Counted from the stretch's first letter, positions 9,784-20,857 are shown. The stretch: DNA of 64,000 nucleotides from Chitinophagaceae bacterium T5-Br10_B2g13 (GCA_001564065.1 LKNA01000002.1:1-64000); one strand, 5' to 3'. The notes: a model not told the origin generated them from the letters alone. Numbers and translations: made by a program.

Positions 9784-10677
9784 CTACTGATCCCACATCT
9801 CAGACCGTATCATCTGAGCACTTTTCTCTGAAATGATATACTCCAGCTTCACCCTCTTCATCTCGGAAACTTTCTGCTCCACCAGCCGCGCACTGGCGGG
9901 AGTATAGACAATCAGATCGGTATTTCGTACAAACAACGGAAGGGATTTTCCGTATGTTGCGCCGGCCACAAACGCACCCTCAAAGTTCATGAGCGCTTTC
10001 AGTTCATCGATGATTTTTGAGATGGACTCTTCCTCGGCTGTTACAAGTCCAATCGCTTCAATGCCCGAGCGGTCAACAATGGAGAGAAGCACATCTGCAT
10101 CGTAATGAAAAACCACCGGCAGCAGGCGGATCGTACTGCTGAGTGATCGGAATTCACTTACCAGGTGAATAGGAACGAACAGCGCATCGTATCGCACCAG
10201 TTCATCATAATCATCCGCAGAGAGGGGCACACTTTTCACGCCAATCTGATTTTTGATAGAGTCGGAAAGCAGCTTGGCAAGCTCTTTCGTCTCCCCAACC
10301 GTTGCAATACTTTGAATCCGATCCGGCCACTCCATATAGCTAATCTGCTCTTCAAATATTGCCTCGATCTCTTTTTCATCCAGCCCATAACCGATCAACT
10401 CCTCAAGCAGCCCCTGCATTTTTTCAGTCCCCATCTCTATTCGCTCGGTTTTATCGAGAGAGGTACTCTGGCGATTCACTACAAAGCCGCGACCCTGCTC
10501 AGGCGAAATCAATCCTTCATCGGCCAGCTGATGGTACGCTTTCCGGACGGTGTGAAAACTGGCTCCCAACTGACGGCCCAACTCCCGGGTCGAGGGAAGC
10601 AGCTCCCCCACCTGAAACTGCTTGGTGGCAATCATCAGTCGAATACGGTCGGAGATATGTTTGGCGGAGTGTTTCAT
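9784..10677 (-). CDS. GntR-family transcriptional regulator
   Basis: The N-terminal 70 residues are a GntR winged helix (LPSTRELGRQLGASFHTVRKAYHQL, then DEGLISPEQGRGFVV). The rest (about 225 residues) is not an obvious FCD, UTRA or aminotransferase domain. It reads as two alpha/beta lobes resembling a periplasmic-binding-like fold (LFVPIHLVSEF, IGLVTAEEES, LIVYTPASARLV). The effector is unknown. It is transcribed away from the helicase gap and follows the TonB receptor gene after a terminator, so it need not regulate that gene. Confidence 0.82.
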   Translation of the reverse strand: MKHSAKHISDRIRLMIATKQFQVGELLPSTRELGRQLGASFHTVRKAYHQLADEGLISPEQGRGFVVNRQSTSLDKTERIEMGTEKMQGLLEELIGYGLDEKEIEAIFEEQISYMEWPDRIQSIATVGETKELAKLLSDSIKNQIGVKSVPLSADDYDELVRYDALFVPIHLVSEFRSLSSTIRLLPVVFHYDADVLLSIVDRSGIEAIGLVTAEEESISKIIDELKALMNFEGAFVAGATYGKSLPLFVRNTDLIVYTPASARLVEQKVSEMKRVKLEYIISEKSAQMIRSEMWDQ

Positions 10678-10789: not shown

Positions 10790-13207
10790 TTAAAACCTCA
10801 GACCATCCAGTTTGTATGTCAGCGACAACCAAACCAGCCTTTCTCTAACGGGCGCTCCCAGTACAGGAATACGTTCGTTATTGAACACGTTTGAAGCACT
10901 AACCTTTGCTGATAAACCTGTATTTGGTATTTGATATCCTGCAGTCACATCGGTTACAAAACGGGAAGGCACCTCTCCATCAGGCAAAAGCAGTTCACTG
11001 TTCCAGTAGCCGGATCGGAATTCATACGCTGAATTCCATCTGCTGCTGATATTCAGGAATGAACCCTGCCCAAACAGATCACCAAAGGTAATACCTCCCT
11101 TAACCTTCGTTTCAGGAACGTTCAGAAGAAATTCATCTCCGCTTTCACTTTCAAAGTTAACTCTCTCAATCAGAGAAACACTGAATGATGCATTAATGGC
11201 ATCGGTGAAGTAGTAATTCAACCCGAAATCCAATCCTCTAACTTCAGCTTCACCAAAGTTGAAATAGGTAAGAAGTCCGGTAAAATCTGCCTGATCCAGC
11301 ATGATCTGGTTTCCATTCGCGTCATAAGGTATTTCTGTAAATCCATCTGCAACGGTGGTCAGAGGGCTGATAAAGTCGGTGTACCAAGAATAATATCCAA
11401 CTACATCAACAAACAGTTTATTACCAAAGACTCCCTTGTAACCCAATTCAAAGGTGTTTACCTCTTCGGGTACAAGCGCCCGGATATCCCGTATGGTTTC
11501 TCCTCCCGGATTTCTGATTTCAAATCCATCGATATTGCCCTCAGCAAGCAGATAGTAGCCCGGAACTGCGGCAGTTAAGTCAATCGGAATGTATGCGAAG
11601 CTCTCAATTACAGATGGACTCTTGAACGCCCGGTTGTATGTGGCACGTACATTGTGACCGCGCGCCACAGTATAAACTAAAGCAGCTTTAGGGCTGAACT
11701 GATCCTCGTAATTGCTGTGAGTGTCATACCGCCCCGCAACAACGGCTCGCATTTTGTCGTCCATAAAACGGTAGTCAAGCTGTAAATACCCTCCAAACTC
11801 TTCCATATCCAAATCACGGCCAACTGCATCTGCCAAGAAAGTTCCTTCCGAATTTGGGGTATAATTGCGGTACTGCAGACCTGTGACATACTCTACTCCG
11901 CCAATCACATTTCTATACTGAACTTCGGTATCCACAACCTGACCCTTATCGGTAAATCCAAATGCATCGCGCAGTGCTTCGTAGTTAATATCATCAAGAG
12001 AAGCACCGCCATCCACCTGAGCCTGAACAGCCGGAACAACCTGGTTTAACTGATAGGTATCGCCGGCATCATTCTCTGTTCGGCTAATCTGTGCATACCA
12101 GTTTGGATGACTAATCTGAAACTGCTGATAGTTCACCTGCCAGTCGCGGATGTGGTTTCTTCCGTTATTAGTTAACCCGAAATTGGTATTTTCTGACCAG
12201 CCGGCCGCTCCTTTAAGTTCCCAGTCTCCCAATCGATAATAGAGAGCACCATCCACTTTATCGGATGAAACGGAGTAGTCATCAATTACGTCCGCTTCAA
12301 ATACAGTGGAAGCCCCGTAAAAATGGGTATTATCTTCGCGGCGTGGTTCAAAGTCGTCAGCTCGCAGGTGCTGACCGGTTATTTTCCATCCAAAATTGTC
12401 GTTAACCGTTCCGGCAACTCTGTAAGTAGCATCAAACAGGCTTTGCTGGCCGCCACGCAGAGAAATGCCAACTCCAGATTCATCCCACGGATCTTTGGTA
12501 AGCACATTCACTACTCCGGTATGTGCATTCGGGCCATAGAGTGCCGAGGCCGGCCCCAATACCACCTCTATTCCCTTCAAATCCAGATCTGAGTTTGGCA
12601 GAAAGTTACCCTGTGGCAATCCGGTTCCGGGCAATTGAGCCATCCGCCCGTCAACCATCTGGAGTAACCTTGTATTAAAGTGACTCGCAAAACCGCGAGC
12701 TGAAATTCCCTGAGCGTTGATTCCCGCATCAACAAAATCCACACCCTTCAGATTTGCCAGCGCCTGATAAAATGTGCCGCCACCCGTCTGATCCAGATTC
12801 TCAGCTGTAACTGTTTCAATCGACATCGGCGCATCAAGCAGTTTCTCAGGCCTTCTTGAACCTGTTACTACCAGCTCTTCGCTGCGAAGTACCGTTTGCC
12901 TCAGTTCAACATCGACTCTTAATGTCTCACCGGCCCGAACCTCCACTGGCTGAGTGTATTCCTCAAATCCTAAAAATGTAACCCGAAGCGTGTAGCTTCC
13001 CGCGGGTACATTCGAAATTCTGTAATTTCCATCTGCATCGGAGGCTGTACCGTAACTGGTGCCTCTCAATACTAAATTCACACCTGCAAGCGCTTCCATA
13101 TCTTGAGCACCAAAAACCTGACCCTCAATATTTCCGGTGTTTTGCGCTTGTATGGTAGTACCTGCCGCTAGGCTCAAAAACAAAAGTAGTGTAACGATTC
13201 GGCTCAT
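10790..13207 (-). CDS. TonB-dependent outer-membrane receptor
   Basis: This protein imports a bulky or scarce ligand across the outer membrane using TonB energy. The 805-residue protein has a signal peptide (about 1-21, ending IQAQ). A CarboxypepD_reg-like beta-sandwich follows at about 26-110 (IEGQVFGAQDMEALAGVNLV, DADGNYRI). The plug spans about 120-235, with LVVTGSRRPEKLLDAPMSI and GPASALYGPNAHTGVVNVLT. The 22-strand barrel ends with the expected terminal Phe. No SusD partner is present. A palindrome, TTTGAAA-AG-TTTCAAA, lies 64 bp upstream of the ATG and is shared with the neighbouring operon and regulator. This ties the receptor to that regulon. The substrate is unknown. Confidence 0.9.
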   Translation of the reverse strand: MSRIVTLLLFLSLAAGTTIQAQNTGNIEGQVFGAQDMEALAGVNLVLRGTSYGTASDADGNYRISNVPAGSYTLRVTFLGFEEYTQPVEVRAGETLRVDVELRQTVLRSEELVVTGSRRPEKLLDAPMSIETVTAENLDQTGGGTFYQALANLKGVDFVDAGINAQGISARGFASHFNTRLLQMVDGRMAQLPGTGLPQGNFLPNSDLDLKGIEVVLGPASALYGPNAHTGVVNVLTKDPWDESGVGISLRGGQQSLFDATYRVAGTVNDNFGWKITGQHLRADDFEPRREDNTHFYGASTVFEADVIDDYSVSSDKVDGALYYRLGDWELKGAAGWSENTNFGLTNNGRNHIRDWQVNYQQFQISHPNWYAQISRTENDAGDTYQLNQVVPAVQAQVDGGASLDDINYEALRDAFGFTDKGQVVDTEVQYRNVIGGVEYVTGLQYRNYTPNSEGTFLADAVGRDLDMEEFGGYLQLDYRFMDDKMRAVVAGRYDTHSNYEDQFSPKAALVYTVARGHNVRATYNRAFKSPSVIESFAYIPIDLTAAVPGYYLLAEGNIDGFEIRNPGGETIRDIRALVPEEVNTFELGYKGVFGNKLFVDVVGYYSWYTDFISPLTTVADGFTEIPYDANGNQIMLDQADFTGLLTYFNFGEAEVRGLDFGLNYYFTDAINASFSVSLIERVNFESESGDEFLLNVPETKVKGGITFGDLFGQGSFLNISSRWNSAYEFRSGYWNSELLLPDGEVPSRFVTDVTAGYQIPNTGLSAKVSASNVFNNERIPVLGAPVRERLVWLSLTYKLDGLRF

Positions 13208-13270: not shown

Positions 13271-13290
13271 CGTTTGAAAAGTTTCAAACG
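13271..13290. promoter_or_regulatory. putative GbsR-type operator O1
   Basis: CGTTTGAAA-AG-TTTCAAACG has perfect 9-bp arms and a 2-nt spacer, and lies 64 bp upstream of the TonB receptor start. Its core TTTGAAA-N2-TTTCAAA recurs at 20261-20276 and 20842-20857. On the transcribed strand it is preceded by TAACG, so it may overlap a promoter box. Confidence 0.65.
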
Positions 13291-13333
13291 TTAGTAATAA
13301 TATATTCGCCCGGCATCAGTTTGTCAAAAAAAA

Positions 13334-14398
13334 TCATTTCACCTTAAATAAAAATTGCTTTACTGTGCTATATACGTGTCCCGGGTTTTCAAGAAAAGGA
13401 GAGTGGCCCACGCCTTTCACCACTTCCGACTCCACTTCGCCGCCATATTTCTCGAGAGCATAGTTGATCTGATCAATCATCGGCTGTGGCGGGTACAGGT
13501 TTTCACCCGGCCATTCATCCCGATATCCGATCTTACCCTGATACCCCGGATCAGACAGCGATTGATTGGAAATGATTTGATCCTCATCTCCATGAAGCCA
13601 AAGGATAGGGGGCTTATACTCTGACAAGCTTAAATCAGAAACCACATCCCGGTTATATTTTGGAGATAGTGCGTTTACAGGTCCAAATTTTCCGGGAGCA
13701 ACATATGGCCAGTACTTCGAATCCGTATAATCTCCCGGGTATTGCTCCCCGCCACAGTGCATCTGAAGCATGGATTGAAGGATTACCTCTTCCCGATCCG
13801 ATGTGAAGTTCTCCTTCCAGAATAGTCGATTCATTACAGCACGCGGAGAAAACATCGGATCGGCTGTATCTTTCAATCCTTTCTTCAAATTTTTTGCAAA
13901 CTCTTTGTTAACCACTCCCGCACCGGAACCTGAGTAGTCCGGGTTGTTTGGTTTGCCATCTCTGCCGTGAATTCCTCCAAAACCAAATGGAGGACCCGGT
14001 GCAATCAGCACCACAGACTTTATCAACTCTTTCAGATTGGGAATTGCGCTCCAGCAGATCCATCCGCCCAGTGAGTGGCCAATTAAATCTGCCTGAGAAA
14101 TATTCATTCGCTGAACGAAAGCTTTGAGATCATCCACCCAGTCCATCGCTCCCCTCAAGGCGTTGATTTTTTCAGACTGATCCGTCAATCCATACCCTCT
14201 CAAATCGGGTGCGAGGCAGAAGAAACTTTCACTGAAAGCCAGCATCATCTCTTCCCAGATCACAGATGAACATGCATTGCCGTGAAGAAAAATAATTGCC
14301 CGGTTTTCCGGACTCCCTGCGGTCAGATAGTGAGTTCTGAGTCGATCTGTATCAACATATTGCGACTTTATTCCATCTAAATGTTCGATTTGGTTCAC
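13334..14398 (-). CDS. cytoplasmic alpha/beta hydrolase
   Basis: The 354-residue protein has an alpha/beta hydrolase fold with the oxyanion loop FLHGNACSS. The nucleophile elbow is GHSLGG (Ser109), an acidic residue lies in LHGDEDQI, and the catalytic base is His332 in GVGHSPF. A long cap region (about 135-250) with many Gly/Pro/Tyr residues separates the core halves. There is no signal peptide, so it acts in the cytoplasm. Its start overlaps the end of the acyl ligase gene by 4 bp, so the two are translationally coupled. It may hydrolyse an ester, thioester or lactone made or used by the ligase; this is inference from context. Confidence 0.85.
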   Translation of the reverse strand: MNQIEHLDGIKSQYVDTDRLRTHYLTAGSPENRAIIFLHGNACSSVIWEEMMLAFSESFFCLAPDLRGYGLTDQSEKINALRGAMDWVDDLKAFVQRMNISQADLIGHSLGGWICWSAIPNLKELIKSVVLIAPGPPFGFGGIHGRDGKPNNPDYSGSGAGVVNKEFAKNLKKGLKDTADPMFSPRAVMNRLFWKENFTSDREEVILQSMLQMHCGGEQYPGDYTDSKYWPYVAPGKFGPVNALSPKYNRDVVSDLSLSEYKPPILWLHGDEDQIISNQSLSDPGYQGKIGYRDEWPGENLYPPQPMIDQINYALEKYGGEVESEVVKGVGHSPFLENPGHVYSTVKQFLFKVK

Positions 14399-15918
14399 TT
14401 CGCCCCGGATTTATGCTGATGGAATAACTCAACCAATGATTTCTTCTGAATTTTATTGGAATGGCCCAGCGGCAGTTCATCCATAAAGATTACGTGGCCC
14501 GGACATTGGAACCCTGCCAGGTACTCTCTGCAATACCCGATCAACTCATCAGGCTCCATGGAATTATTCTCTTTAAGCACAACAAAAGCGCACCCTGTCT
14601 CTCCCCACTTTTCATCCGGGACTCCAACCACAGCAACCTGCGAAACCTTCGGATGCTCATATATCACATTCTCCACCTGAACGGGATATACATTTTCGCC
14701 TCCGCTTATGTACATCTCTTTTTTGCGGCCTACAATGTAGAAGTATCCCTCTTCATCCTTTCTGAACAGATCACCGGTTTTTACCCAGCCCTCTTCCAGC
14801 GTCTCATTTGTAGCCTCCGGGTTATTCCAGTACCCGCTAAACAAGTGCGGCCCTTTCATCCAAAGCTCACCAACTTCGCCCTGCCCCACTTCTCTCCCAT
14901 CCTCCATCAGCTTTACATCGATATGAAAATTTGGAAATCCTACCGAGCCCTCTTTACGAATAGCGTCTTCACTCGGAAGAGAGTAACAGTTCGGTCCGGC
15001 TTCTGTTAGTCCATATCCCTGACGAATCGGAATATTTACGTCCTGATATTTTTTGATGACCGGAATCGGGCAGGCTTCCCCGCCACAAATAGAATATCTG
15101 ACGGACGAAAAATCGGTTTGATCAAAAACGTTTTCATCCATCATCATCTTTAGCATGGTGGGTATACCGAACAGAATAGTGACCTTCTCCTGCTCAATCA
15201 GTTTTAGTGACTCAACGGGATCGAACTCGGGCTGCAGAACCACTTTCCCGCCATGATGCATCAACGGTGTAAAGAGAACATGCCATCCTCCCGTGTGGTA
15301 GAACGGTGTATTCACAATCGAGCAGTCAGCCGACGTGAGCTTCAGACTCACCTCCGTATTAATGGAGTTCCAGTGTATCTGCTTCCAGGAGATCATAGCG
15401 CCTTTAGACTTGCCTGTGGTTCCCGATGTATACAGAATCATTGCCGTTTCATTCTCATCAGCACTATGGATATTTGGTGCCGGTTGATTCTCTTCCACAA
15501 TACGTTTTACGGAGTTTTCATCACCATCCAAAGATAAAATCTCTTTAACGGCTTCTTTGGTTTTCAGTGCCTGTGCCATATCCGCATACTCCCGGGAAAA
15601 AATCAAAAGGGAAGGTGTACAGTCATCAATCAAATCCTTTATGGCAGGTTCAGGCAGTCGGAAATTATAGGGAACCAAAATCAAACCAAGCTTACCGCAG
15701 GCAAAATAGAGATCGATCATCTCCATGCAGTTTTTTGAGATCACCCCGAGTCGATCACCGGCTTTTAAATTAAATCGGTTTTGTAGTATGTAGGCTAAAT
15801 TATTGGCTCTTCGGTTCAGGTCGCCGTAGGTAAACCTCCGGTCATGTTGCACGTCTACAATCGCTTCCTTGTCCGGAGTATATCGTTCTCTTTTTGTAAG
15901 CCAGTCATTGTAATGCAT
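14395..15918 (-). CDS. AMP-forming acyl-CoA synthetase (ANL superfamily)
   Basis: ANL ligases activate a carboxylate as acyl-AMP and transfer it, usually to CoA. At 507 residues it has the P-loop YTSGTTGKSKG (163-173), the A5 motif QGYGLTEAGP, WVKTGDL and the hinge region GRKKEMYISGGENVYPVQVE. The C-terminal lysine motif is LGHSNKIQKKSL, where the usual Gly before the lysine is Asn. The sequence resembles medium- or long-chain and aryl acyl-CoA ligases, and the acid cannot be specified. It lies 6 bp downstream of the symporter gene in the same operon, which suggests that it activates the imported acid. Confidence 0.9.
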   Translation of the reverse strand: MHYNDWLTKRERYTPDKEAIVDVQHDRRFTYGDLNRRANNLAYILQNRFNLKAGDRLGVISKNCMEMIDLYFACGKLGLILVPYNFRLPEPAIKDLIDDCTPSLLIFSREYADMAQALKTKEAVKEILSLDGDENSVKRIVEENQPAPNIHSADENETAMILYTSGTTGKSKGAMISWKQIHWNSINTEVSLKLTSADCSIVNTPFYHTGGWHVLFTPLMHHGGKVVLQPEFDPVESLKLIEQEKVTILFGIPTMLKMMMDENVFDQTDFSSVRYSICGGEACPIPVIKKYQDVNIPIRQGYGLTEAGPNCYSLPSEDAIRKEGSVGFPNFHIDVKLMEDGREVGQGEVGELWMKGPHLFSGYWNNPEATNETLEEGWVKTGDLFRKDEEGYFYIVGRKKEMYISGGENVYPVQVENVIYEHPKVSQVAVVGVPDEKWGETGCAFVVLKENNSMEPDELIGYCREYLAGFQCPGHVIFMDELPLGHSNKIQKKSLVELFHQHKSGAK

Positions 15919-15924
15919 ATCAAC

Positions 15925-17472
15925 CTACCCTGTTTGTTTTGACAATTCTTTACCTCTCAGCTCAATGCGCCCGTTTTTCATGCGATATACGGCAAACCCA
16001 ATAGCTACCCCGGTCAGAATGGCCACGGCAGCAGCTACGCCGGGATTTTCGCCCGTGGCTTTTGAAAAGGGAACCGGAAGCATGGCATAATACATCGTAA
16101 AGTGTACAATCACTGCAGAAACCGATGCCAGAATTGCCGACAGCTTAGGTACATTTTTGAAAAACATACCAAGCAGAATGGGAGTAAAGGCAGCGGAGAA
16201 GTACGCGTACACTCCGTTCTGAGCAAAAATCCCCACACTTAGTTTAGGTTCCACTATTTGTCCCCACGACAGATAAACCGTAATCACGGCCATGGCAGCA
16301 ATCACAATCCGATTCCATATCAGCTGAGGAGGCAAACCGAACAGATCTTTTTTAAAAATTTTATTACCGGCAAGAGGTCTTAATATATCATTGGTTATTG
16401 ATGTTGATAGTGACTGGATCAAACTTTCCAGCGTGGATATTCCGGCCGAAATTAGCCCCATAACCACAATAAGGGCTACAATAACAGGAAACTCACTCAC
16501 TACATAAGCAGATACGATATTATCCATCGGCAACGGCTCACCGGCAATCATTAAATCAGGAAATCGAATTCTGGCAAACAGACCGGCAATCACAACTAAA
16601 AAGAAGAGAAACTGAGCAGCACATCCCACCAGCAGATATCTGTTAACATCTTCATCCCTCTTTAGCAGAAGTGACTTGGTTAAAATATGTGGCTGACAGA
16701 TAATTGCAATGCCTACCACAATCTGTGCAAAAATAATCTCAAAGTAGTCCCGGAACAGAAAGCTGTCGTCGTTCGTGGTTTGCGTCAATTTTGGATCGAT
16801 CGCATTGAGTTTATCAATAAACCCATGAACTCCCTCGCGGAAGTGGTCATAACCCGATCCCAGCAGGATAAATGCAACAATCACCATCAGCAGAGCCTGA
16901 ACGGTGTTGGTGTAAACCATCGAATTCGCTCCGCCGAACATCATATAACCGAAGATGAATATCACAATTCCCAAAAGTGTGTAAAACTCGGGGATGTTCA
17001 GTGTACTGGAGAGCACCTTCGTTAATCCAACGCAGATCAGCACAATGAACGTGATCAGCAGAAGAGAAAGAAAACCGAAAAATATTCCATACCCCTCACT
17101 CTTGTACATCGTCTTCATCCACTCTGCCATACTGAGGGCTTTTGTTGTCTTTCCGTGGCGCCGGAAACCTTTTGTGAGCAATACCAAAGAGACCAGGGCG
17201 GCAAGCGGCAACGCAAATGCCATGGAAATCACCCCGCTGAATCCATACAGAGCCACAAAACCGGGGTTGATAATAAACGTAGCCGCACTGGTAATGGATG
17301 CAGCCAGAGATAAGCCAACGGCTGCCGGAGAAAAAAGCACATTCCCTAAAGCGTAATCTTTTATATCCTTGGTTTTACCGGCACCACGTATCACAAAATA
17401 GAGAATGGTGATTACATACACTGCAATCAAAATCCACCCTCCGGTTACCATCTGTTGAGATGCCAGTTCCAT
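15925..17472 (-). CDS. sodium:solute symporter (SSS family)
   Basis: The 515-residue inner-membrane protein has about 13 hydrophobic segments in the SSS pattern. The first helix is followed by DYALGNVLFSPAAVGLSLAA, and a conserved Ser/Ala/Thr-rich second helix reads SITSAATFIINPG. Later segments include GGANSMVYTNTVQ and SAGISTLESLIQSLS. SSS members take up sugars, amino acids, carboxylates or vitamins with Na+. Its place between a KAS III-like gene and an acyl ligase suggests a carboxylic acid substrate, but this is inference. The gene has ordinary length and no disruption. Confidence 0.9.
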   Translation of the reverse strand: MELASQQMVTGGWILIAVYVITILYFVIRGAGKTKDIKDYALGNVLFSPAAVGLSLAASITSAATFIINPGFVALYGFSGVISMAFALPLAALVSLVLLTKGFRRHGKTTKALSMAEWMKTMYKSEGYGIFFGFLSLLLITFIVLICVGLTKVLSSTLNIPEFYTLLGIVIFIFGYMMFGGANSMVYTNTVQALLMVIVAFILLGSGYDHFREGVHGFIDKLNAIDPKLTQTTNDDSFLFRDYFEIIFAQIVVGIAIICQPHILTKSLLLKRDEDVNRYLLVGCAAQFLFFLVVIAGLFARIRFPDLMIAGEPLPMDNIVSAYVVSEFPVIVALIVVMGLISAGISTLESLIQSLSTSITNDILRPLAGNKIFKKDLFGLPPQLIWNRIVIAAMAVITVYLSWGQIVEPKLSVGIFAQNGVYAYFSAAFTPILLGMFFKNVPKLSAILASVSAVIVHFTMYYAMLPVPFSKATGENPGVAAAVAILTGVAIGFAVYRMKNGRIELRGKELSKQTG

Positions 17473-17510
17473 AAATATTAATTTTCTGTTTCTGTATTCA
17501 TCTTACATTT

Positions 17511-18503
17511 CTAAAACCTGTAGGCGCATGCTGCAAAATGCAATCCACCGCCCGATCCTATAAATACGGCTAAATCACCCTTTTCAACAGAACCTTTTCG
17601 GTACTCCCGGTCAAACACCATAGGTATAGCAGCCGAACCGGTGTATCCAAATTTTTCCATGATGGTTGGAGCCGTTTCTCTGGGAAGATTCAGGATATCC
17701 ATCGTTTCCCAAATCTGGTTAATGTTGATCTGGGTGATAAAAACGTGTTTTACATCAGCTACATCTTCCCCGGCTCGTTCGCAAACGGTTCGGATCATAT
17801 CGCTCCACATTTTTGGATTCAGCTCTTTCGGGAATTTCTCCACAAATTGTAGACACTGCATCTTTTCAGCAACCTTCTCTTCAGTCACCGGATCTGCCGC
17901 TGCACCGGTATAAATTCCCATGTGTCCGTGATACTCTCCTTTCGTTCTCAAATCAGATGATAAAAATCCAACACCGGCTTCTTCAGTTGGTTCGAGTATA
18001 ACAGCACCGGCACCGTCCGCAAAAAGTGTAACCGTCTTCTTGTCATCCAGATTTAAAAAGCGGCTCATTCCATAGGCTCCCATCACCATCACTTTTTGAT
18101 ACCGTTCTTCTGCAACCATCATGCTGTTAGCCAGTGTAAAAGCCGTGGGAAATCCTGCACACGCCGTGTTGGTGTCTAATGAAGTGGCATTTTTTAAACC
18201 CATTTTGTACTGCACAACCGATGCTGTTGACGGCGAAATAAAGTCCGGAGTATCAGTAGCTATGATGAGCAAGTCAATATCCTCAGGATTTAAACCGGCC
18301 ATTTCTAAAGCATTATTACCCGCCTTCACGCATAAGTCGCTGGTCGTTTCTCCCTCTTCCATCCATCGTCGTTCATGGATGGTCAAATTTTCTCTCAGCC
18401 AGGTATCCACATCTTCCCCAAGCCGTTCATTAAACCATTCGTTTTTCAATATCCTGGCGGGAGCATAAGATCCCGAGGCGATAATTTTTGCTCGTCTGCT
18501 CAA
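17511..18503 (-). CDS. KAS III-like (thiolase-fold) protein with altered triad
   Basis: The 330-residue protein is clearly related to FabH: thiolase-fold halves, nucleophile Cys115 in DTNTACAGFP, FADGAGAVIL and a C-terminal GSGGGLHFAACAYRF. Comparison with E. coli FabH needs no gap between the His and Asn motifs. The catalytic His of PHQAN corresponds to Thr257 (ITQIN) and the Asn of HGNTSAAS to Tyr287 (FGYTGSAA), with the same 30-residue spacing. Decarboxylative condensation as in FabH is therefore doubtful; acyl transfer, thioester hydrolysis or another Claisen-type reaction is possible. It overlaps the FabG-like gene by 4 bp and lies 38 bp before the symporter gene. Confidence 0.85.
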   Translation of the reverse strand: MSRRAKIIASGSYAPARILKNEWFNERLGEDVDTWLRENLTIHERRWMEEGETTSDLCVKAGNNALEMAGLNPEDIDLLIIATDTPDFISPSTASVVQYKMGLKNATSLDTNTACAGFPTAFTLANSMMVAEERYQKVMVMGAYGMSRFLNLDDKKTVTLFADGAGAVILEPTEEAGVGFLSSDLRTKGEYHGHMGIYTGAAADPVTEEKVAEKMQCLQFVEKFPKELNPKMWSDMIRTVCERAGEDVADVKHVFITQININQIWETMDILNLPRETAPTIMEKFGYTGSAAIPMVFDREYRKGSVEKGDLAVFIGSGGGLHFAACAYRF

Positions 18504-19243
18504 AATATCAGCCCTCCATCCACATTAAGTACAGTTCCTGTGATAAACGCTGCTTTATCTGAGGCAAGAAAGAGATACGCCTCTGCAATATCCTCAGGCT
18601 CTCCCAATCTGCCCAGGGGAGTTTTCTCCTTTAAAGAATCCAGAACTTTTTCAGGAACCGTATCCACCATGCTCGTATTGATAAATCCCGGAGCGACTGC
18701 ATTAACACGAACCCCTTTTCTTCCAAGCTCTTTGGCCCATGTTTTCGTCATTCCTATCACTCCAGACTTTGAGGCGACATAATTGGATTGGCCAAAATTA
18801 CCGTTATGTGCCACAACAGAGCTGGCATTCAAAATAACCCCGCTACCTTGTTCCGCCATCAGCTTAGCTGCTGCTCTCCCGCAGTAATACACACCGCTCA
18901 AATTCACATCAATGACAGCCTGCCACTGATCTTTTTCCATCTTCAAAAGTGTCCCGTCTTTCGTAATCCCGGCATTGTTGACCAGAACATCAATTTTCCC
19001 GTGGCGATCTATCAATCCGCTCATTGCCTTTTCCACTTGATTCACATCGGCAACATTTACTTTTTGGAATGAGACGGAGAACCCCTCCTCTTCCCAGATT
19101 TTGATCTGATTTTTGGCAGCATCTTCATTAAAATCCCATATCTCTACAGTAGCACCTTCCTGTAAAAATTTATCTGCCGTTGTTTTTCCAATACCGGCAG
19201 CTCCGCCGGTTATCAGTACTGTTTTGTTTTTAAATTGAGACAT
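18500..19243 (-). CDS. FabG-like short-chain dehydrogenase/reductase
   Basis: This 247-residue classical SDR has a nucleotide-binding TGGAAGIGK, NNAG, a catalytic Ser at 141-142, Tyr155 and Lys159 (YVASK), Asn114, and a C-terminal NVDGG. The NAGITKDGTLLKM stretch resembles 3-oxoacyl-ACP reductases. It probably reduces a 3-keto or oxidises a 3-hydroxy acyl intermediate with NAD(P). It is translationally coupled to the KAS III-like gene and 8 bp downstream of the secreted hydrolase. It is not the extended-SDR type found in OleD. Confidence 0.87.
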   Translation of the reverse strand: MSQFKNKTVLITGGAAGIGKTTADKFLQEGATVEIWDFNEDAAKNQIKIWEEEGFSVSFQKVNVADVNQVEKAMSGLIDRHGKIDVLVNNAGITKDGTLLKMEKDQWQAVIDVNLSGVYYCGRAAAKLMAEQGSGVILNASSVVAHNGNFGQSNYVASKSGVIGMTKTWAKELGRKGVRVNAVAPGFINTSMVDTVPEKVLDSLKEKTPLGRLGEPEDIAEAYLFLASDKAAFITGTVLNVDGGLIF

Positions 19244-19251
19244 TCTTCTGT

Positions 19252-20199
19252 TTAGTTTAGATTTAAAAAAATTCTGACTGCTTGGTTGAATTCCTCCGAT
19301 TTTTCGAAATGCACAAAATGCCCCGCATCCTCAATCATGATCAGCTCCCCATTTTGCAATTCCGCTGTACCCGCCTCAGCTACAGATTGTGTGGTTAAAT
19401 CCGGGTTTAGATATGGATTCGGTATCAATCCGTCTTGGAAGCCATAAACCACCAATACTGGCACATCTATATCCGACAACCTATCGAAAACAGGTTCATC
19501 CAGCATGGCAAAAATCGATTCCGCCTGAGCCCTGGAGTAATTTTCAAAATCCGGATCATCCCTCATCTTCAGTCGGTCTTCAATCATAAAAGAGGCTTCC
19601 TCAGGAAACTGGTGGAATGTGTTCATCGCATTCATTCGAATCGCGTCTTCCCCTGTATTCATGATCGACTCTTTATTTACGGTCATCTGAAAAACTTGCC
19701 GGTGTTGATCGCTAAACTGCTCGAAACCGGCAGGGGCCGACAGAATCAACCCCTCTATTTTATCCTGATATTCCAAAGTGATGTATAATGCAATTTGTCC
19801 ACCCATGGAATGCCCTGTTAAATAGGCCTTATCAACCGAAAGCGCTTCCAGCAACTGGACAACTGTTTCAGCAAAAAAGGGAATATTATATTGCTCTGCA
19901 GTTTTAGATGATTTGCCATATCCGGGCAGGTCGAGGGCTATGATTCGAAAATCCTCTTTCAGTCCTGAAATGTTTTTCTGCCAGGCCGGCAAATAGCTTC
20001 CAAGTCCGTGAATCATCAGGATCACTTGATCTGCATCCCCTTCATCCACGTAAGCTACCGTTTCTCCATTTGGCAGGGTTTGATGGTGAACATCAAACGG
20101 ATAATCTAACCAGTCGAAGGAGGATTGTGCGGAAAGGCATCCCGGGAGCAGAGCCCATAAAAAAAATAAGTAAACCGCTTTTTGAATCATGACTTTCAA
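19252..20199 (-). CDS. exported alpha/beta hydrolase, first gene of the acyl operon
   Basis: The 315-residue protein begins with a hydrophobic export signal followed by LLPGCLSAQ. Cys21 fits a lipobox, although cleavage after SAQ is also possible. The core has MIHGLGSY, the nucleophile elbow GHSMGG (Ser131), an acid in VVYGFQDG and the base His in DAGHFVHFE. Export places it in the periplasm or outer membrane, suggesting that it cuts an ester or related bond in a ligand brought in by the TonB receptor. A putative operator lies 62 bp upstream. It leads a six-gene operon running to 13334. Confidence 0.87.
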   Translation of the reverse strand: MKVMIQKAVYLFFLWALLPGCLSAQSSFDWLDYPFDVHHQTLPNGETVAYVDEGDADQVILMIHGLGSYLPAWQKNISGLKEDFRIIALDLPGYGKSSKTAEQYNIPFFAETVVQLLEALSVDKAYLTGHSMGGQIALYITLEYQDKIEGLILSAPAGFEQFSDQHRQVFQMTVNKESIMNTGEDAIRMNAMNTFHQFPEEASFMIEDRLKMRDDPDFENYSRAQAESIFAMLDEPVFDRLSDIDVPVLVVYGFQDGLIPNPYLNPDLTTQSVAEAGTAELQNGELIMIEDAGHFVHFEKSEEFNQAVRIFLNLN

Positions 20200-20260
20200 A
20201 TTTTAAGTGAAATGCGGAGTGAGACTTTTTCTCCGCGAATCTACTTTATGTTATTAAAAA

Positions 20261-20276
20261 TTTGAAAAGTTTCAAA
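20261..20276. promoter_or_regulatory. putative GbsR-type operator O2
   Basis: TTTGAAA-AG-TTTCAAA is a perfect 7-bp palindrome 62 bp upstream of the exported hydrolase start, the same distance as O1 from the receptor gene. On the transcribed strand TAACT precedes it. Confidence 0.65.
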
Positions 20277-20332
20277 AGTTATTGATCCACAACGTGGTTT
20301 TTTGGATCAGTGGTCAGTTTAACAGAAAGGAT

Positions 20333-20818
20333 TTAATTTCTTAATTCAGCCAGTTTACTTTTCCAGGCTTTCAGAAACTGTTCATTATGTTCGTCCATCA
20401 GCTCATAAAATGACTGCATCTCTATCATTCTCTTGTAAGCATACTGCTCATCTTCGCCATTCATATCTTTGGCTATGTCGGCATATTTTTTTGCGATTTG
20501 AATATTGCGGCTCATTTTTGCCTTCTGGTTTTGAAAGGCCTGACCAAATATATCCTCCGATGCTTTGTAGTAATCTTTTCTGTCTCCGGGAACCCAAACG
20601 CTTTCAATCAGATTCCTCTCCTTCAACCTGCGGCATATTTGAGAAATGGGTCCCTTACTCATCTCCAGTTTTTCAGTGATATCATCCAGCGATTGCGGAT
20701 CTTTCGAAATAATTAGCAGTGCAATGATGCGTCCCATCAGCGGATTCAGGCCAAAATTACTGTAGGCTTCTGCAAAGTCGGTGATGATACTGTTTTTAAG
20801 CTCCGGATGATTATCCAT
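20333..20818 (-). CDS. GbsR/MarR-type transcriptional regulator
   Basis: The winged-helix core (GRIIALLIISKDPQSLDDI, MSKGPISQICRRLKERNLIE, VPGDRKDYYKA) matches the GbsR branch of MarR-like proteins, followed by a helical dimerisation region. An upstream frame reaches 20896. I choose the ATG at 20818 (161 aa), because the extra 26 residues would be encoded across the palindrome at 20842-20857, and the shorter form has the usual family length. With that start the palindrome is 24 bp upstream, as expected for autoregulation. It faces the same way as the acyl operon, separated by about 130 bp. GbsR of Bacillus senses choline; the ligand here is unknown. Confidence 0.85.
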   Translation of the reverse strand: MDNHPELKNSIITDFAEAYSNFGLNPLMGRIIALLIISKDPQSLDDITEKLEMSKGPISQICRRLKERNLIESVWVPGDRKDYYKASEDIFGQAFQNQKAKMSRNIQIAKKYADIAKDMNGEDEQYAYKRMIEMQSFYELMDEHNEQFLKAWKSKLAELRN

Positions 20819-20841
20819 GAAAGATGATGTCAGTTGAATAG

Positions 20842-20857
20842 TTTGAAATATTTCAAA
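20842..20857. promoter_or_regulatory. putative GbsR-type operator O3 (autoregulatory)
   Basis: TTTGAAA-TA-TTTCAAA, a perfect palindrome with the same arms as O1 and O2, lies 24 bp before the preferred start of the regulator gene. Confidence 0.6.

Follow-up and report, generated by a model that had tools for sequence, protein, structure and literature searches.

The window, by which we mean the whole 64-kb stretch of DNA analysed here, carries a run of minus-strand genes that encode, in order, a GbsR/MarR-type regulator, an alpha/beta hydrolase, a FabG-like short-chain dehydrogenase, a KASIII-like protein, a symporter, a CoA ligase, a second alpha/beta hydrolase and a TonB-dependent receptor. 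One predicted operator separates the regulator from the first hydrolase, a second separates the last operon gene from the receptor (Table 1), and the first hydrolase is conserved in relatives. An earlier reading of this DNA (hereafter the sequence-only reading) had described the receptor promoter as unlinked, which is wrong: the receptor gene directly follows the operon and shares its strand, with its start (13207) lying 126 bp from the end of the last operon gene (13334), and it is therefore linked, with a promoter of its own. A GntR-type regulator gene (9784-10677, minus strand) was observed directly downstream of the receptor, and a 64% identical counterpart occupies the equivalent place in another genome (G199, L171). 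No Rfam elements were found in the region.

Table 1. Coordinates of genes, promoter boxes and predicted operators at the locus, numbered from the first letter of the window.
Feature	Position	Strand	Remarks
TonB-dependent receptor, 805 aa	10790..13207	-	Pfam Plug and TonB_dep_Rec
TonB receptor operator (predicted)	13271..13290	.	CGTTTGAAAAGTTTCAAACG
Receptor promoter -10 box TATATT	13299..13304	-	Operator core starts 10 bp downstream, about start site
Receptor promoter -35 box TTGACA	13322..13327	-	17 bp before -10; TTGACA-N17-TATATT also in L066
Second alpha/beta hydrolase, last operon gene	13334..14398	-	Pfam Abhydrolase_1
AMP-forming acyl-CoA ligase	14395..15918	-	Pfam AMP-binding
Sodium:solute symporter family transporter	15925..17472	-	Pfam SSF
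KASIII-like protein	17511..18503	-	Pfam ACP_syn_III; alignment of 63 orthologs
FabG-like short-chain dehydrogenase	18500..19243	-	NCBIfam FabG NF004198, 300 bits, cut-off 296
Alpha/beta hydrolase, lipobox-like signal, probable lipoprotein	19252..20190	-	Pfam Abhydrolase_1; TTG start 20199 possible
Operon operator (predicted)	20261..20276	.	TTTGAAAAGTTTCAAA
GbsR/MarR-type regulator, 161 aa	20333..20818	-	Pfam MarR_2, HTH_27
Regulator-gene operator (predicted)	20842..20857	.	TTTGAAATATTTCAAA, 24 bp upstream of ATG 20818

That the regulator is of the GbsR type, as the sequence-only reading had proposed, is supported by profile, sequence and fold. Among solved structures it comes closest, on profile (E = 1e-18) as well as on fold (Foldseek, E = 3e-10), to Mj223 of Methanocaldococcus jannaschii (PDB 1KU9), which serves as the family's structural reference (PMC6207618). 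The AlphaFold2 model of the regulator (mean pLDDT 94) and the profile agree with the family fold, a winged helix-turn-helix with long dimerisation helices as in Mj223, and at the sequence level the locus also has the A/T-rich inverted repeat close to target promoters that is a family feature. However, the regulator scores only 60.9 bits against the NCBIfam CudC model, below the cut-off of 218, and its neighbours are hydrolases, FabG, KASIII, a sodium:solute symporter, a CoA ligase and a TonB receptor instead of the choline oxidation or Opu transporter genes expected of the choline (CudC) subgroup. Because the CudC cut-off is missed and the neighbours are not osmolyte genes, we place the regulator in the GbsR family and outside its choline (osmostress) subgroup.

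A close comparison within the family is provided by GbsR of Bacillus subtilis, which acts on gbsAB-opuB, and by OpcR: shared with the system proposed for the window are the GbsR/MarR fold, an A/T-rich inverted-repeat operator, autoregulation, and a small regulon beside the regulator's own gene that combines an uptake system with enzymes (PMC7396694). The half-sites of B. subtilis GbsR are spaced by 4 bp, whereas those of the window operators are spaced by 2 bp, and its targets serve choline oxidation and ABC-type osmolyte import as opposed to an acyl pathway. CydE of Alishewanella is likewise a GbsR-family repressor adjoining its target operon, but it governs cytochrome bd oxidase and its inducer is reported to be sulfate (PMC6207618).

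Palindromes in the window and the host genome

A pattern scan of the window placed exact copies of the core TTTGAAA-N2-TTTCAAA at 13273-13288, 20261-20276 and 20842-20857, in agreement with the three identical-core palindromes of the sequence-only reading. The core arms of the first site are lengthened to 9 bp (CGTTTGAAA-AG-TTTCAAACG). The spacings that had been given, 64, 62 and 24 bp, are correct for starts at 13207 (ATG), 20199 (TTG) and 20818 (ATG); the gap ahead of the first operon gene becomes 70 bp if that gene starts at ATG 20190, and start 20818 of the regulator is backed by an alignment of 16 orthologs. The claim that the window holds no other copy was borne out, with zero core matches beyond the three sites when as many as two mismatches are allowed. 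Three exact cores were observed in 64 kb against 0.003 expected under a first-order Markov model. With two mismatches tolerated, shuffled controls of the core average 1.15 window matches, and the evidential weight therefore lies in the three exact copies. Could these nevertheless be chance A/T-rich palindromes in intergenic gaps? The motif is A/T rich, and 7 of 100 shuffles attain three window matches at two mismatches, but in the face of three exact copies against an expectation of 0.003, and of the phylum-wide recurrence described below, we consider the chance explanation exceedingly improbable.

The host genome (G000; 4.3 Mb in 258 contigs, 97.6% complete) was also scanned by pattern with one mismatch allowed, as the sequence-only reading had suggested, and the palindrome is not scattered across it. 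Four exact cores occur where the first-order Markov model expects 0.2 for the whole genome, namely the three window sites and a single further copy (C183:46214) which falls within the dihydrofolate reductase gene (folA); the many unrelated positions that had been named as evidence against a regulon were not found. Allowing one mismatch adds five places, four of them within reading frames, and we regard these as background because a reversed-pattern control reaches the same whole-genome total as the core at up to one mismatch (9 vs 9). The fifth place (C203:16961) is intergenic but forms part of a separate inverted repeat, CCCATT..AATGGG, that is also present in a genus mate without the regulator. 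Distal regulon members in the host were rejected on this basis, the fourth exact site being in folA and the intergenic one-mismatch site belonging to another repeat. The 20-bp motif matched 12 genome places at up to three mismatches vs 4 for its control, and at 0–2 mismatches it gave no clear additional target in the host genome. The CCCATT..AATGGG repeat itself (L020:4950-4985; G000:C203:16950-16985) lies between divergent genes, is kept in G023 and is possibly the site of another regulator.

Conservation of regulator and sites across Bacteroidota

Among 58 other genomes of an order-level sample, 13 carry an ortholog of the regulator (47–65% identity); none of the 27 genus mates does. Regulator and KASIII orthologs co-occur in an identical set of 14 out of 59 order-level genomes, that is, the host and the 13 relatives. 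Where the locus is on a contig, the core (0–1 mismatch) stands ahead of the first operon gene, the regulator or the receptor, and all three sites are found in equivalent places in Balneolaceae bacterium CSSed162cmB_41R1 (L066), Fodinibius halophilus (L067) and G033. The counterpart of the regulator-gene site recurs in L066, L067, L050 and many loci across the phylum, and a site is retained ahead of receptor orthologs in L066, L067, L050 and L087. At E < 1e-60, a receptor ortholog was detected in only 2 of these 13 genomes. That of G033 is at the locus with a site ahead of the gene; that of G037, 56% identical, is on a different contig from the operon and has an exact site upstream, and the operon contig of this genome ends in an apparent tRNA gene and has zero overlap with the receptor contig.

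Outside the locus the palindrome is scarce. Nine exact cores in total, a background level, occur among the 46 order-level genomes that lack a regulator ortholog, while in regulator-bearing relatives most exact cores are at the orthologous locus and few are elsewhere. The extra one-mismatch sites of the 13 relatives are mostly within genes or beside unrelated genes, although three of them fall at the start of one single conserved gene. Because exact cores are rare away from the locus and one-mismatch sites are mostly genic or beside unrelated genes, the regulon appears to be local. We also note an exact intergenic core (L098:4568-4583; G035:C60:20567) ahead of a TetR-type gene and away from the operon, which may be due to chance or may mark an extra target.

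At the level of the phylum, a KASIII ortholog (E < 1e-80) was found in 56 of 395 evenly sampled Bacteroidota genomes, representing 37 genera, and the regulator is usually beside the operon KASIII. We examined 63 orthologous loci, 56 with a regulator ortholog in the fetched stretch and 7 without, absence being judged within that stretch (one of the seven, G042, has a regulator on another contig). The sequence-only reading had named the retention of genes without sites in relatives as evidence against it, but the core (up to one mismatch) is carried by 48 of the 56 loci with a local regulator vs 0 of the 7 without (Fisher p = 1e-5, a value that overstates independence as the loci are related by descent and L067 and L172 are one genome). 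The sites usually lie 13–130 bp ahead of the first operon gene or close to where the regulator gene starts. Exact cores number 42 sites in 32 loci, whereas each of 12 shuffled palindromes matched to the core in composition hit 0–2 loci and never exactly. Regulators at loci that kept the palindrome diverge to 33–80% identity, and orthologs in the phylum go down to about 33% or less. Since both the palindrome and the gene set recur across Bacteroidota, we take the pairing of regulator and site to be old and real.

Eight loci are exceptions. L180 has a perfect palindrome with 9-bp arms (CGTTTGGAATTTTCCAAACG), those of family f39 have a degenerate site with one half kept (CGTTTTATATTTTTCAAACG and similar), and at L196 and L201, where the regulator is present, no site was found at the locus. 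The presumed recognition helix reads SKGLIS in L196 vs the usual SKGPIS and is unchanged in L201.

The flanks of 75 core-selected sites, which were not used in site selection, add symmetric information (TAACGTTTGAAA-NN-TTTCAAACGTTA) and extend the full operator to about 26 bp with 12-bp arms, TAACGTTTGAAANNTTTCAAACGTTA. The 9-bp arms that the sequence-only reading gave for 13271-13290 agree with this longer form, but its 16-bp core is not the whole operator. Promoter-box-like stretches within the core (TTTG and TTGAAA) raise the question of whether the palindromes belong to some other transcription factor or are simply typical of promoters in A/T-rich Bacteroidota DNA. This would be very unlikely given that the sites track the presence of the regulator at the locus, stay at background level elsewhere and in regulator-less genomes, and are missing from the host's two GbsR paralogs, which are at unrelated loci without a core match.

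Operator position and mode of regulation

Because the TTGACA-N17-TATATT promoter lies directly upstream of it, in the window as well as in L066, the receptor operator would occupy about +1 to +20. Such a placement resembles the roadblock geometry of B. subtilis GbsR, which autoregulates and also acts as a roadblock downstream of the start site, and the operon operator, which overlaps a possible -35 box on the minus strand (TTGAAA-N16-TAACAT, likewise in L066), resembles the arrangement of OpcR, which covers -35 (PMC7396694). The promoters of the regulator gene and of the operon in several relatives are weak matches to the sigma-70 consensus. All four studied members of the GbsR family are repressors (PMC6207618). 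Repression with autoregulation is most likely the mode because of this operator/promoter geometry and the precedent of the family.

We infer that the regulator binds DNA at the three palindromes, and our main reading, to which we assign a probability of roughly 0.87, is that it is an autoregulated local repressor which occludes three promoters and is released by an imported carboxylic acid or its CoA ester. The regulator gene lies between two of the three predicted operators, and the dimer would set one helix on each half-site of TAACGTTTGAAANNTTTCAAACGTTA. RNA polymerase would be stopped at the start site of the receptor promoter or immediately beyond it, and over the -35 region of the operon promoter. 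The repressor would thereby keep expression low for three units: its own gene, the operon that runs from the first hydrolase through FabG, KASIII, symporter and CoA ligase to the second hydrolase, and the TonB receptor next to it. The lipoprotein hydrolase would probably free a carboxylic acid from an ester, with entry via receptor and symporter, and the repressor would then be released either by this acid or by the CoA ester that the ligase forms from it. The effector is probably this imported acid or CoA ester, a guess made by analogy with the MarR-type CouR, for which a CoA ester is the releasing ligand (PMC4737184). MarR repressors of acid catabolism, CouR among them, share the logic of a local repressor, a CoA-dependent acid-degradation operon and release by a CoA ester (PMC4737184), but CouR is of another MarR branch, outside the GbsR family, and controls other genes, so that the resemblance is one of logic only.

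The same sites and regulator might instead serve activation, or self-repression plus activation of the operon. The MarR superfamily includes activators besides repressors (PMC6207618), and the operon sites of several relatives lie where promoter boxes are poor. However, the receptor site is downstream of near-consensus -35 and -10 boxes, which fits blocking and not activation, and the family precedent of four repressors also makes an activator unlikely. For the repressor, the layout given by the sequence-only reading (regulator, operon, receptor and the regulator itself) holds up with the conserved sites and co-occurrence, apart from the supposed lack of linkage of the receptor.

The KASIII-like enzyme and the gene set

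The active site of the KASIII-like protein was compared over 63 orthologs, with residues numbered against an E. coli FabH reference sequence in which C112, H244 and N274 checked out. The Cys is present in 63 of 63 orthologs, the His position is Thr in 62 and Ser in 1, and the Asn position is Tyr in all 63, so the Cys-His-Asn triad of canonical KASIII (FabH) is absent from the operon enzyme. The host genome's own FabH (L013) retains the normal HQAN and GNT motifs. Since essentially all orthologs have Thr in place of the His and Tyr in place of the Asn, the operon protein probably does not act as a normal condensing enzyme.

The gene set plausibly resembles one that imports a carboxylic acid and degrades it by a CoA-dependent route. 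Some lineages have a MaoC-type hydratase among the locus genes. In other lineages the window's TonB receptor is absent and the operon includes a barrel protein of about 520 aa (L058:16725-18341 and equivalents) which has no Pfam or NCBIfam match. A low-confidence model of this protein (pLDDT only 66) predicts an outer-membrane beta-barrel, with AlgE/Occ channels nearest in Foldseek. In many relatives the barrel gene is adjoined by that of a small lipoprotein-like protein whose family is unassigned (L056:6911-7429, L052:4295-4798, L154:5619-6563). At L196:6819-8042 an aromatic acid/H+ symport-type MFS transporter stands in place of the sodium symporter, a hint at the substrate class.

Three substrate classes are possible. 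A PHA or hydroxyacid is suggested by the second hydrolase, whose best NCBIfam model is an intracellular PHA depolymerase at a score far below cut-off; an aromatic acid by the CoA ligase, whose best PDB matches are a fatty-acyl-CoA synthase and a feruloyl-CoA synthetase, together with the L196 MFS transporter; and small acids may be indicated by the modelled AlgE/Occ-like barrel of other lineages. A broader reading, which we hold tentatively and at somewhat less than even odds, is that of a Bacteroidota-wide regulon for a previously undescribed route of acid utilisation, in which the KASIII-fold Cys-Thr-Tyr enzyme would not condense but would do another job, for example retro-Claisen cleavage or acyl transfer, and in which this branch of GbsR would sense an acyl compound and not choline.

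As a kind of system, the local autoregulated MarR/GbsR repressor is well known. A prior description of this regulon, operator or gene set was not found in open-licence papers, and an earlier description elsewhere is possible. In a survey of 179 GbsR-type proteins, the Bacteroidetes subgroup could be assigned neither a process nor a consistent genomic neighbourhood (PMC6207618); the locus described here supplies such a neighbourhood. The conserved regulator and its predicted 26-bp operator give members of this subgroup a defined regulon and a candidate binding site. The regulon also unites genes that were found in 56 of the 395 Bacteroidota genomes sampled, among them one for a KASIII-like enzyme without two of the three catalytic residues.
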